Source: an uncultured Coriobacteriaceae bacterium (GTDB lineage Bacteria > Actinomycetota > Coriobacteriia > Coriobacteriales > Coriobacteriaceae). Taken from it: 64,000 bases of DNA. Shown in pieces: positions 25,360-57,478 of the stretch (position 1 is the first letter of the stretch; each line of letters begins with the position of its first letter). Location of the stretch: NCBI GenBank assembly GCA_944319885.1, contig CALUFC010000001.1, positions 62,001-126,000 on the forward strand, written 5' to 3'. The notes below the pieces were generated by a model. That model was given only the letters and a program-made list of their open reading frames with translations. It searched no databases and was not told the origin of the DNA. The translations under genes were made by a program, and so were the position numbers.

Positions 25360-25435
25360 TGGTGGAGGTTAGGGGGATCGAACCCCTGACCTCAGGCTTG
25401 CAAAGCCCGCGCTCTCCCAGCTGAGCTAAACCCCC
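25360..25435 (-). tRNA. tRNA-Ala (anticodon TGC)
   Basis: Cloverleaf readable on the minus strand: 7-bp acceptor with one G-T pair, D-arm TAGCTCAGCTGGGAGAGC, anticodon loop TTTGCAA, T-arm GGGGTTCGATCCCC, discriminator A and encoded CCA (25360-25362). 76 nt. Reads codons GCA/GCG/GCU by wobble. Confidence 0.95.
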
Positions 25436-25444
25436 ACTGTAGGA

Positions 25445-25487
25445 ATAAACACCCCAGCGGCGACTCGGCTCTCGCTGGGGTGTTTAT
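25445..25487. terminator. Strong symmetric hairpin between tRNA-Ile and tRNA-Ala
   Basis: Perfect 15-bp stem (25445-25459 ATAAACACCCCAGCG with 25473-25487) and a 13-nt loop in the 62-nt tRNA spacer. It has A/T-rich stem ends but no proper U-tract in the tRNA direction, so it may be a processing signal or partial terminator. Confidence 0.65.
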
Positions 25488-25497
25488 TGCGAAAGAA

Positions 25498-25574
25498 TGG
25501 TGGACCTGACAAGATTCGAACTTGTGACCTCCCGGTTATCAGCCGGACGCTCTAACCAACTGAGCTACAGGTCC
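25498..25574 (-). tRNA. tRNA-Ile (anticodon GAT)
   Basis: Minus-strand cloverleaf: acceptor GGACCTG/CAGGTCC, D-arm TAGCTCAGTTGGTTAGAGC, anticodon loop CTGATAA, T-arm ACAAGTTCGAATCTTGT, discriminator A, encoded CCA (25498-25500). 77 nt. Promoter lies directly upstream. Confidence 0.95.
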
Positions 25575-53958: not shown

Positions 53959-54188
53959 GGCGCGCCTTTCTTATATGTATATAGATATCTCTTTCATAAT
54001 AGTAATAAGACGGTGGACGATGTGGATGAGTCGTATTCGAGCTGGTGGATGCGGGAAAAGTTTTCAACGTTGGCGTGTTGGCAACCGGTCTGGTTTTCAA
54101 CACCTTCTCGCGCGGCCACGGCTCTCCACCATGATACGTGAGTTTTCAACAACCTTTCCCCGGGCTTCCAACATGTTTCCCACGGGGC
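53959..54188. other. dnaA-dnaN spacer, candidate oriC segment
   Basis: 230 nt with DnaA-box-like 9-mers: TGTGGATGA (54021-54029, one mismatch to the consensus reverse TGTGGATAA), TTTTCAACG (54061-54069), TTTTCAACA (54094-54102, 54143-54151) and CTTCCAACA (54165-54173). An AT-rich block at about 53968-54010 (TATATGTATATAGATATC and following) could be the unwinding element. Actinobacterial origins often lie in this spacer. Box calls rest on similarity to TTATCCACA. Confidence 0.65.
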
Positions 54189-55847
54189 TTACGATATCAG
54201 CGTGATCTTGTTGCGCAGCTGCTGAAGATCCTCGGCGATCGTGCGATCCTCCTTGATTTTCTTCTCGATGACCTTGATGGAGTTCAGGACGGTCGAGTGG
54301 TCGCGTCCGCCAAACTCGGCGCCCACCATGGGCGTGGTCATCTCGCACATGTCGTTGGCGAGGTAGACCGCCACGTGCCGCGCGAACGCGATGTTCTTCA
54401 GGCGCTTGGGGCCGATAAGATCCTCGTGGCTCACGTGGTAGAACTCCTCAACCACCGATTGCACCGTGTCGATATGGATCTTCTTGTGCTTGGTGTCGAA
54501 GTATTCGTTGGCGATCCGGTCGATATCCTCGCCGGCGAGTTCGCCGCCTGCTTGCTCGCGCTCGTACGACTCGCCCGCGCACCGTTCGCAGAAGCTCTCG
54601 AGCTCGCGGATGTTCGTGCCCGAAACATGCGCCATATAGCGCAGCTGCTCGTCGGTGAGCGTGCCGCTGCCCGAGCGAATCGAGCCGAGCAGGGAATCTT
54701 CGCCCTCGAGTTCCTCTTCGGCTTCTGCCGAGGGCAGCACGGTATTCTCGTAATAGCGCTTTAGGATGGCGTATTTCATCTCGAAGCCGGGAACGGATAC
54801 CAGGCAGAGCATGCCGGCATTGAAGCGGCTGGTAAGGCGCTCGTCCATGCCGAGTTTCTTGGGTGCGCGGTCCGAGGCGATGACGACCTTCTTGTTGTCG
54901 CGTATGAACTCGTCCATCAGACGGAAGAAGTACTCGATGCTCGCCGTCTTGCCGATGATGTTCTGGATGTCGTCGATGATGAGGATGTCGGCATCGTGGT
55001 AGTCGCGCAGGATGGCGCGGCCCTCGGTCTTCTGGATGGCGACCTCGTTGATGAAGTCGTCGATATAAGCCTGCGAGTTGGCGTATTTTACCCGGATATA
55101 GGGCTTGTTCTCGTTCAGGTAGTTCTTGATGGCGAGCAACAGGTGCGTCTTGCCGAGGCCCGAGTTGCCGTAGATGAACAGCGATGTGCAGGTGCCCGGC
55201 TCCTCGGCGAGGGCTGCGAAGCGCACCGCCGACTGGTAGGCGTGCTTGTTTTCGTCGCCGTACACGAAATTCTCGAACGTGAACTTCGAGTTGATGGGGA
55301 CGGAGGGATAGGGTTCCGCATCGTGCGTCGGGTGCGACACCTGTTGCGGGGCCTCGTGCTTTTCCACCGGCGTCCCGCCCATGCCCGCCATGATCTTTTG
55401 GAGGTCGCCCGGCGTGATGATATTGGTTACGTTGACGCGCTCGCTCGGTTCGCGCGTGTTGGTTGCGGCAGCTGCTGCGGGCATGCCGTGCAAAGGTGGC
55501 ACGCTCGGCACGATTGGCACCTGGTGGCGCGCCTCGCTCGCGGTTGCCTCGGGCGTGGGTGTTTCACGGGAAACCGGCTGCGCGCCGCGCGCGCCTGCCG
55601 CCGACGGCACCGTGATATGGAGCGAGAGCTCGCAGAACGCGATGTCCTCGAGGTAGCGCTCGATGACGGCGCGCTGCTTCATAAGGTATGAGTAGGCGAA
55701 GCGCGACGGTGCTTCGATGGTGAGCGCCTCGTCGGTGAGGGAGACCGCCCGCGACTGCTCGAGCATGTTGATCAGGCGGGCATCCTGGTTGTCGCGCTGG
55801 CAAAACGAGATGGTGTCATCGAGGATCATCTGCGCTTCGTTATCCAT
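54189..55847 (-). CDS. dnaA: Chromosomal replication initiator DnaA
   Basis: 552 aa. Domain I (1-90), a long variable linker, AAA+ domain III with Walker A GNSGLGKTHLLLAI, Walker B ADILIIDDIQ and sensor ASDRAPKKL, and the domain IV helix-turn-helix FGGRDHSTVLNSIK that reads DnaA boxes. Start at 55847 (MDNEAQMILDD) after GGGAG. An inserted acidic stretch in the lid (SAEAEEELEGEDSLLGS) is unusual. It follows the ATPase-HTH gene by 35 nt rather than facing rpmH directly. Confidence 0.97.
   Translation of the reverse strand: MDNEAQMILDDTISFCQRDNQDARLINMLEQSRAVSLTDEALTIEAPSRFAYSYLMKQRAVIERYLEDIAFCELSLHITVPSAAGARGAQPVSRETPTPEATASEARHQVPIVPSVPPLHGMPAAAAATNTREPSERVNVTNIITPGDLQKIMAGMGGTPVEKHEAPQQVSHPTHDAEPYPSVPINSKFTFENFVYGDENKHAYQSAVRFAALAEEPGTCTSLFIYGNSGLGKTHLLLAIKNYLNENKPYIRVKYANSQAYIDDFINEVAIQKTEGRAILRDYHDADILIIDDIQNIIGKTASIEYFFRLMDEFIRDNKKVVIASDRAPKKLGMDERLTSRFNAGMLCLVSVPGFEMKYAILKRYYENTVLPSAEAEEELEGEDSLLGSIRSGSGTLTDEQLRYMAHVSGTNIRELESFCERCAGESYEREQAGGELAGEDIDRIANEYFDTKHKKIHIDTVQSVVEEFYHVSHEDLIGPKRLKNIAFARHVAVYLANDMCEMTTPMVGAEFGGRDHSTVLNSIKVIEKKIKEDRTIAEDLQQLRNKITLIS
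55560..55575. other. parS-like site inside dnaA
   Basis: TGTTTCACGGGAAACC, 14 of 16 matches to the parS palindrome present upstream of parA. It lies in the dnaA linker-coding part. ParB binding here is possible but unproven. Confidence 0.4.
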
Positions 55848-55882: not shown

Positions 55883-57016
55883 CTATTCGTGCGCTTGGAT
55901 CCACGTGGTGCCGAGTTCGGTGAGATGGTATTTCTGCCCGCGCTTCGCGATGAATCCTTGCTCACTCAGTGTAGCAAGCTCGCGCGACCAGGTGGGACCC
56001 GAGTGCCCGTAGGCGTGGGCGAGGTCGGTGGGGCCCGCTTCCCCGCGCTCTAGGATAAAACGCAGGGCAAGACCTGCGCGTTCACTGATATACGGTGCCT
56101 GCGCAGGGTAGGCTTGCCCACTGGGCGGCACCATCTGGCCAGGCCAAGGATATCCCTGTTGAGCAGGGAATTGTGGAATTGTGGAAAACTGATGGCCAGC
56201 TTGTGGATAACCGGGGTTCGTCGCCGGGTAGGCGGGCTGGGGATACACGGGTTGCGCTTGCGGACCTGCCGGCCACGCCCCCATGCCGGGCTGTTGGTAG
56301 ACACTCGGCCATGCGCTGTATGCCATGCCTTGGTCCATGGCGAGCGCCTGCTGAGCGGCCGGCATCTCGGGTGATGCCGGTGTGCTCGGCATGCTGGCCG
56401 CCCCGCTGCGCACTGCCGCCCCGCGCTGCGCATGTCCGGCTATCTCCTGTGTGCGCGCCGGATCGATGGTGACCGTCACCACGGTGCCCGCGCCGAGATT
56501 GTCCTCCACCGACACCGCGCCACCCGCTGTCTCCAAATACTGCTGAACCATGGGAAAACCGGCACCCGTGCCGCGGATATAGCGTTTCATGTCGCGGTTG
56601 GCCGAGGTCACGCCGAACTCGAAGGCCCGTTCCTTGTCCTCGATGCCGGGTCCTTGGTCGGCGAAGCGAATGGTATTGCCCCCATCGAGGATCGAGATGA
56701 TCGGCTCCACGAAGTGCGCGTGGATGAAGTTCTCCACAATCTCGCGGATAACCATGAGCGCGATGTTTCCGCCCTGCTCCTTCATGCAGCGATAGACGGT
56801 GTTCGTGATCTCCTCGAGATAGGTTCGCACCGGCGCCGGCTCGATGACCATCACGCGCGGTGTTGAGTACATATCGTCGTAGATTGCGATACGCGTGGCG
56901 TAGGCGGCCATCTCGCCCTCTGCAGGTGCATCTTCTGCCGCACGGGCGCCCGTGATGTGCCGATTGTCGGGTGCGGGATCGCCCGAGTCCACGAATGTGT
57001 AGAAATCTTCTGCCAT
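55883..57016 (-). CDS. HATPase (anti-sigma/histidine-kinase-like ATPase) with C-terminal winged helix, upstream of dnaA
   Basis: 377 aa from the ATG at 57016 (MAEDFYTFVD; weak ribosome site; a GTG at 57085 is an alternative). Residues 75-185 are a GHKL ATPase: N-box REIVENFIHAHF, G1 FADQGPGIED, G2 RGTGAGFPMV. No histidine phosphoacceptor domain is seen. Residues about 190-305 are a Pro/Gln/Tyr/Ala-rich low-complexity linker. Residues about 310-377 form a winged helix of MarR/ArsR look (GLALRFILERGEAGPTDLAH, GPTWSRELATLSEQGFIAKRG). It lies between rpmH and dnaA, co-directional with dnaA 35 nt away, so likely in one operon. Role unknown; a regulator of initiation or a stress switch is inferred from position. 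Confidence 0.75.
   Translation of the reverse strand: MAEDFYTFVDSGDPAPDNRHITGARAAEDAPAEGEMAAYATRIAIYDDMYSTPRVMVIEPAPVRTYLEEITNTVYRCMKEQGGNIALMVIREIVENFIHAHFVEPIISILDGGNTIRFADQGPGIEDKERAFEFGVTSANRDMKRYIRGTGAGFPMVQQYLETAGGAVSVEDNLGAGTVVTVTIDPARTQEIAGHAQRGAAVRSGAASMPSTPASPEMPAAQQALAMDQGMAYSAWPSVYQQPGMGAWPAGPQAQPVYPQPAYPATNPGYPQAGHQFSTIPQFPAQQGYPWPGQMVPPSGQAYPAQAPYISERAGLALRFILERGEAGPTDLAHAYGHSGPTWSRELATLSEQGFIAKRGQKYHLTELGTTWIQAHE
56172..56210. other. Intragenic DnaA-box cluster
   Basis: Three box-like 9-mers in 39 nt within the linker-coding region of the ATPase-HTH gene: TGTGGAATT (56172-56180), TGTGGAAAA (56180-56188) and TGTGGATAA (56202-56210), the last a perfect consensus box in reverse orientation. 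Confidence 0.6.
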
Positions 57017-57075
57017 GGTGTCCGTTTCAACGTCGCCGATAGCTAGATAGTAGCTCAGACCGCCTCGATTCACAT

Positions 57076-57159
57076 CTTTCCACACGTTTTCAAAACTTGT
57101 TGAAAAGTGAAGAAAAGGAGTGAAAAGTTATCAACATATTCAACAGCACCTGTGGAAAA
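57076..57159. other. DnaA-box cluster upstream of the ATPase-HTH/dnaA operon
   Basis: In the rpmH-side intergenic region: CTTTCCACA (57076-57084), TGTTGAAAA (57098-57106), TTATCAACA (57128-57136, one mismatch), TATTCAACA (57137-57145) and TGTGGAAAA (57151-57159). The rest of 57017-57343 holds the divergent promoters. May be part of oriC or of dnaA autoregulation. Confidence 0.65.
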
Positions 57160-57257
57160 GTCTCTGAAAGATTGTGAAATATGACCGATGCTTTTCAGGC
57201 GCGCGCATCACTCATAGCGGTCGGTATGGTGAGTTCTGGAGATGTCACCAAGATTTG

Positions 57258-57287
57258 TTGACATTTCCGCACCATATTCCCTACAAT
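57258..57287 (+). promoter_or_regulatory. rpmH promoter
   Basis: TTGACA (57258-57263), 18-nt spacer, TACAAT (57282-57287), about 55 nt before the rpmH start. Confidence 0.85.
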
Positions 57288-57343
57288 CTGAAAGCTCACG
57301 TGCATGTAATGATTGCAAGAAATGCAGCAGGAGGATATCAACC

Positions 57344-57478
57344 ATGAAGCGTACGTATCAGCCGAATAAGCGCAAGCGTGCTAAGACCCACGGCTTCCGC
57401 GCCCGCATGGCAACCAAGGGCGGCCGCGCCGTGCTTGCTCGCCGTCGTGCCAAGGGTCGCAAGCGTCTCACGGTCTAG
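57344..57478 (+). CDS. rpmH: 50S ribosomal protein L34
   Basis: 44 aa, [19 protein letters not shown] start and [12 protein letters not shown] end; start at 57344 after AGGAGG. First gene of the rpmH-rnpA-yidD-yidC-khpB unit on the plus strand, under the TTGACA/TACAAT promoter. Confidence 0.98.

Follow-up and report, generated by a model that had tools for sequence, protein, structure and literature searches.

YabA is a regulator of DnaA and oriC. DiaA, HobA and SirA are named among such regulators in PMC13270200, as is Soj in PMC4255298. DnaA regulators that are specific to a lineage are an established class of proteins, and each domain of the protein described here is likewise of a known kind. 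The likeness to SirA, Soj, YabA, DiaA and HobA is one of role, that of a proposed lineage-specific control of DnaA; none of the five is known to be a GHKL-winged-helix protein with its gene in front of dnaA. Among the openly accessible papers that our searches listed, we found no description of such a protein, nor of DnaA control in Coriobacteriia or other deep-branching Actinomycetota.

In its domains, the protein can be compared with three described systems. Its N, G1 and G2 boxes are like those of the HATPase_c domain (PF02518) of sensor histidine kinases such as KinB (3d36), but, unlike these kinases, it has neither a HisKA/DHp domain nor a sensor domain, and carries a C-terminal winged helix instead. 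Like SpoIIAB and RsbW, it combines a GHKL domain lacking DHp with an ExxxN N box; unlike them, it has no sigma factor or STAS neighbour, its orthologues match HATPase_c_2 in one case out of 34, and some of the genomes that carry it are devoid of such partners. Residues 305-377 share the fold of MarR-type regulators (Z 12.9), whereas here the winged helix is the C-terminal part of a GHKL protein and lies outside the MarR dimer framework.

The window (the whole stretch of DNA analysed, 64,000 nucleotides from an uncultured Coriobacteriaceae bacterium) contains the following features around the gene:

55883-57016, minus strand: gene for a GHKL ATPase-linker-winged-helix protein of 377 amino acids, with an ATG start and including the stop codon (read from the open reading frame and from orthologues)
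54189-55847, minus strand: dnaA, 552 amino acids, ATG at 55847 (homology to the dnaA copies of relatives)
57017-57343, unstranded: divergent interval of 327 nt that separates the 377-aa gene from rpmH and forms the part of the predicted origin on the rpmH side
53959-54188, unstranded: dnaA-dnaN interval, where the predicted two-part origin has its second region of DnaA boxes
57258-57287, plus strand: promoter-like TTGACA-18-TACAAT directed at rpmH (pattern scan and upstream alignment)

Read directly, 35 nt separate the stop codon of the 377-aa gene from the start of dnaA, both on the minus strand, with rpmH lying divergently on the plus strand (ATG at 57344). The original prediction, which was made from the sequence of this stretch, had described a 377-aa frame with the motifs REIVENFIHAHF, DQGPGIED and GTGAGF, lying 35 nt ahead of dnaA on the same strand; all three motifs are present and the position is as described. 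It had also presented the gene as wedged between rpmH and dnaA. The placement is real, although it is not special to the source genome: rpmH is faced by the gene's orthologue, not by dnaA, in most of the sampled Coriobacteriia. The promoter-like site directed at rpmH, found once against 1.3 expected by chance, is kept in the upstream alignment; the pattern scan gave no sigma-70-like promoter for the 377-aa gene itself. Elsewhere in the window, tRNA-Ala(TGC) and tRNA-Ile(GAT) adjoin one another at 25360-25574, a pair that is usual in rRNA spacers, and neither Rfam nor motif searches detected rRNA in the 64-kb window.

The protein itself divides into the following parts:

56459-56755, minus strand: GHKL (HATPase_c) domain, residues 88-186 (Pfam)
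Within this HATPase_c domain, the ATP-site boxes: N box E92/N96/H99; G1 box D120-x-G122-x-G124; G2 box G149-x-G151-x-G153
56087-56422, minus strand: Pro/Gln/Tyr-rich linker of about 110 residues, approximately residues 199-310 (alignment)
55886-56086, minus strand: C-terminal MarR-type winged helix, residues 311-377 (Pfam, AlphaFold and structural matches)

This order of GHKL domain, Pro/Gln/Tyr linker and C-terminal winged helix had been anticipated from the sequence, and the Pfam matches bear it out. Membership of the GHKL superfamily follows from a significant HATPase_c match over residues 88-186 (E 2.6e-11, better than the curated cut-off) together with the N, G1 and G2 motifs, and HATPase_c is matched by all 34 orthologues that were scanned with Pfam. 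Among 108 distinct sequences, N96, H99, D120, G122, G124, G149, G153 and G177 are invariant, G151 is kept in 107 and E92 in 106; where E92 lies, SpoIIAB, MutL and GyrB have their catalytic Glu. Since these residues are near-invariant, the ATP site looks like a working one and the protein would be expected to bind ATP. The AlphaFold model has a mean pLDDT of 48.2 for the full protein and of 41.6 for the GHKL domain alone, with the GHKL part mostly below 50, so that the GHKL (Bergerat) fold is predicted from the Pfam match and the motifs.

Judged from the model, the C-terminal domain has a winged-helix fold: pLDDT values run at about 88-96 across the last 70 residues, and a structure search, effectively with residues 304-377, matched MarR regulators with Z 12.9 and an rmsd of 1.4 over 71 residues, and the MarR-operator complex 5h3r with Z 12.0 and an rmsd of 1.2 over 69 residues. 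In Pfam, residues 313-376 score 34.9 bits with HVO_A0261_N, a winged-helix family whose cut-off is 35, and match HTH_IclR more weakly. The linker that joins the two domains is, in the alignment, long in Coriobacteriaceae and short across most other lineages. Searched against solved structures, the family profile gave KinB (3d36) as its best match (E 4.2e-7), then MutL (1.2e-4) and, weakly, SpoIIAB (1l0o; 0.013); in NCBIfam, 45 families were matched at E<=1, and among the 25 matches listed none came near its cut-off. HisKA/DHp is absent from the 25 Pfam families that the 34 orthologues match at E<=0.01, as expected from the earlier observation that a kinase dimerisation/His domain is lacking, and we rejected an identity as a sensor histidine kinase because the HisKA/DHp domain with its phosphoacceptor His is missing in all 34.

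The original prediction would have lost its footing had homologues been scattered far from dnaA in relatives. When this was checked, they were found to stay beside it: in 145 of 146 loci, the gene is followed directly by dnaA in the same orientation, and the one other locus (L020) has an N gap. The 146 loci represent 107 distinct sequences, with some genomes counted twice, and were selected either for the best match or as the single representative of a family, and are therefore not a random sample; the 145 comprise 135 assigned by script, two by inspection and eight at contig ends. In L097 and L129 the dnaA frame is split and the pairing was read from tblastn positions; the eight contig-end loci come from six genomes, each contig beginning with dnaA. 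Outside Coriobacteriia, dnaA comes next on the same strand in 24/26 loci; in the two that remain the contig ends, and these were resolved by the contig start. The gap between the gene and dnaA, a lower bound in each case as the most upstream start was used, is at most 60 nt in 49 of 54 loci; in 11 of the 54, the two genes overlap. Because the arrangement recurs in 145/146 loci, it is not a product of chance. The distance matrices of the GHKL-winged-helix protein and of DnaA are also correlated (Mantel r 0.65, a value reached by 0 of 999 permutations). That the gene adjoins dnaA shows that the two are inherited together and are probably co-transcribed; it does not show regulation.

On the other flank, where synteny with the rpmH side rests on rnpA and yidC, one of these two genes lies divergently upstream in 132 of the 146 loci. 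In most of the 14 loci without them, this flank is covered by little sequence; a partial rnpA stands at the edge of L057, and about 700 nt are available in L141. Two loci of a single genome, L079 and L087 of G163, have a rearranged neighbourhood with no rnpA or yidC upstream; this genome retains the gene-dnaA pair though dnaN has moved, and rnpA was not found in the stretch fetched from it (L087). In this 1.45-Mb single-contig genome, dnaN lies on the opposite side, and the interval between the gene and dnaA holds two exact DnaA boxes.

To place the gene in its lineage, we surveyed genomes across the phylum Actinomycetota. A single-sequence search (E<=1e-5) found it in 351/396 Coriobacteriia genomes and in 300/314 of good quality, counts that include a few genomes in which the search only hit a different ATPase weakly (among them G189, G329, G342, G085 and G037, none of which was found with the profile). 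A profile built from 34 diverse members (A1) matched 158 of 396 phylum genomes at E<=1e-10, 38 of them in Coriobacteriia and 120 outside. The class of G434, which we take to be Rubrobacteria, has the gene in 30/39 genomes (21/22 good ones), and the class of G468 in 60/149; the class of G417, presumably Actinomycetes, gave 1/197, a marginal match (7e-11) that lacks the C-terminal part. Named carriers are Collinsella and Enorma, alongside uncultured relatives. By this class-by-class distribution, the gene, which is single-copy, dates far back in the phylum, and some classes have lost it or carry it only patchily.

Thirty Coriobacteriia assemblies lack the gene (20 of the 45 unmatched ones and ten with weak matches only). 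In 25 of these dnaA is missing as well, so the region is missing from the drafts, and in another, G095, dnaA is cut at a contig edge. There remain four genomes in which the gene is absent 5' of an intact dnaA: G029, and three members of a single genus, G162, G227 and G329. The dnaA-to-rnpA stretch is in one piece in G227, G329 and G029; the stretch fetched from G162 shows no rnpA, and the absence there covers the 5' side of dnaA. Since these four have an intact dnaA and no gene, the gene is not indispensable, and on an evolutionary scale it is dispensable. DnaA-box-like sites persist upstream of dnaA in at least three of the four gene-less loci L153-L156.

DnaA boxes were counted as TTATCCACA with at most one mismatch, with expectations taken from first-order shuffles. 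Sites in the window include:

57128-57136, plus strand: DnaA-box-like site TTATCAACA in the interval between the gene and rpmH
57151-57159, minus strand: DnaA-box-like site TTTTCCACA in the same interval
54021: DnaA box TCATCCACA, one box in the dnaA-dnaN interval of the window
56180-56210, minus strand: pair of DnaA boxes 22 bp apart in the linker-coding DNA, TTATCCACA at 56202-56210 and TTTTCCACA at 56180-56188

Across loci, the intervals from rnpA/rpmH to the gene, which start at rnpA and so include rpmH, hold 141 boxes against 5.4 expected, about 26-fold (51 loci, 34,972 bp), and the dnaA-dnaN intervals 88 against 5.0, about 18-fold (50 loci, 14,162 bp), 18 of the 88 coming from L131 alone. 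The counts are 35 against 6.2 inside the gene (57 loci) and 26 against 9.8 inside dnaA (54 loci). Box clusters flank the gene-dnaA pair, and the gene therefore lies inside the predicted origin, which has a two-part layout. Of the 14 boxes in the 64-kb window, five fall within 56180-57159, including the sole exact one. An alignment of 11 Coriobacteriia loci from outside the order of the window shows box modules kept near rpmH and near the gene, with head-to-head DnaA boxes (TTTCCACAGATGTGGAAA-like) among what is kept, and 17 Coriobacteriaceae have in common an AT-rich block immediately before the gene. No kept motif clearly unlike DnaA boxes, as might be sought for a winged-helix operator, appeared in the 11-locus alignment, and a palindrome made of two DnaA boxes could be a DnaA site only. 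One origin half is unusually dense: in L131 (G406), a dnaA-dnaN interval of 525 bp holds 18 DnaA boxes, 14 of them exact.

The exact TTATCCACA of the window lies within the gene itself, with the second box of the pair 22 bp away, in the DNA coding for the linker peptide YPQAGHQFST. Of 36 non-identical Coriobacteriaceae genes, eight have a pair with this 22-bp spacing in linkers that otherwise differ from one another; resampling the codons of an unchanged protein, with usage pooled from the same genes, gives an expectation of 0.02. The spacing was noticed first and tested afterwards, and several of the 36 come from near-identical species, with L034/L037 and the window's own gene/L004 forming close pairs, which leaves about six independent cases. 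For this subset of eight, we rejected a chance origin of the pair. Given the 28 genes without it and these weaknesses, the pair is not general to the gene, and we read it as a predicted accessory DnaA site, conserved at the level of DNA in part of the Coriobacteriaceae.

The architecture, the ATP-site residues, the conservation, the adjacency to dnaA and the flanking box clusters together form the basis for reading the protein as a regulator that binds DNA, responds to nucleotides and acts on the dnaA operon and/or oriC, a reading that we regard as plausible and in which we place middling confidence. As would be looked for in such a regulator, it is encoded with dnaA, at the origin, with box clusters on both sides, and the suggestion in the original prediction that it could tune dnaA expression or initiation gains support, as an idea, from the constancy of this neighbourhood (145/146 loci). 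In the proposed mechanism, the 377-aa gene would be the first gene of a dnaA operon, probably co-transcribed with it and situated inside the two-part origin; the MarR-type winged helix would bind DNA at or near oriC, the intervals beside the gene being its presumed target; the GHKL domain would bind ATP and change state with it; and dnaA transcription and/or orisome assembly would then respond, in either direction, to the nucleotide state. The protein might act in this way on dnaA or on initiation rather than elsewhere in the cell. The most economical reading is that the dnaA operon encodes a nucleotide-responsive protein which binds DNA and feeds back on the operon itself and/or on oriC, again with a confidence that is evenly balanced; autorepression comes next.

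As a simple autorepressor, the protein would use its winged helix to repress the promoter of its own operon, so that the level of DnaA follows passively and initiation is not directly affected, with the ATPase domain serving as a dimerisation or ligand-sensing module. Autorepression is typical of MarR-like proteins, and both the small or overlapping gap to dnaA (49/54 loci) and the divergent position beside a box-rich interval fit it. However, the near-invariant ATP site, with its likely catalytic Glu (106/108), exceeds the needs of a passive dimerisation module, and we consider this alternative unlikely, if still to be taken seriously. Less probable again is an ATP-gated clamp like those of MutL and GyrB, in which GHKL dimers would close around DNA held by the winged helices and so organise the origin. 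The N box E92-I-V-E-N96 resembles that of MutL, MutL chains match the profile at positions 78-137 (E 1.2e-4) and the gene lies inside the predicted oriC; yet the Pfam scan of 34 orthologues detected no transducer or S5-like domain, and the best sequence match is to the histidine kinase domain of KinB rather than to MutL.

Two further explanations we hold to be very improbable. In one, the gene would work elsewhere and stay by dnaA as a frozen, accidental neighbour, through the conservation of operons near the origin. The rpmH-rnpA-yidC and dnaA-dnaN-recF blocks are frozen in bacteria, and genes next to them can be too; this is countered by the 145/146 loci and by G163, which kept the pair though dnaN moved and rnpA was not found in the stretch fetched. 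In the other, to which we give slightly less credence still, the protein would be a partner-switching anti-sigma kinase like SpoIIAB or RsbW, fused to a DNA-binding module. A weak match to the anti-sigma F factor family TIGR01925 (E 0.0058), the profile match to SpoIIAB and the ExxxN box shared with it would agree with this, and the original prediction had called the ATPase anti-sigma-type. That description did not hold: HATPase_c_2, the RsbW/SpoIIAB-type family, is matched at E<=0.01 by only one of the 34 orthologues (best E 0.0083), and, among 31 carrier genomes, STAS is found in 23 and SigB/F/G above cut-off in 21, with both absent in eight (G004, G163, G198, G257, G373, G397, G399 and G412). 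As carriers can lack STAS and SigB/F/G together, a general anti-sigma role is unlikely. The source genome moreover has separate RsbW-like genes, with six HATPase_c_2 matches that do not include the 377-aa gene, one of them beside a SigB/F/G gene (C9:14671, E 1.6e-4) and another next to STAS in the same frame (C11:15575, E 1.2e-19). The latter region of this genome (C11:15206-15919) encodes STAS and RsbW-like domains in one 396-aa frame, an unusual anti-anti-sigma/anti-sigma fusion.

Beyond the regulator reading, we put forward, as a speculation that is more doubtful than autorepression, that the protein is a second origin ATPase beside DnaA in deep-branching Actinomycetota: switched by ATP and bound to the origin, it would directly gate orisome assembly, its own coding sequence would have been recruited into the origin in some Coriobacteriaceae through the linker DnaA-box pair, and it would have been lost in the class of G417 when DnaA control changed.

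For these genomes, the gene marks the location of the predicted origin, and the few that lack it provide natural gene-loss controls. It occurs in gut genera such as Collinsella. Its retention between the origin and dnaA in several classes makes it a natural first candidate for DnaA control, and a good one for controlling the time at which these bacteria copy their chromosome.
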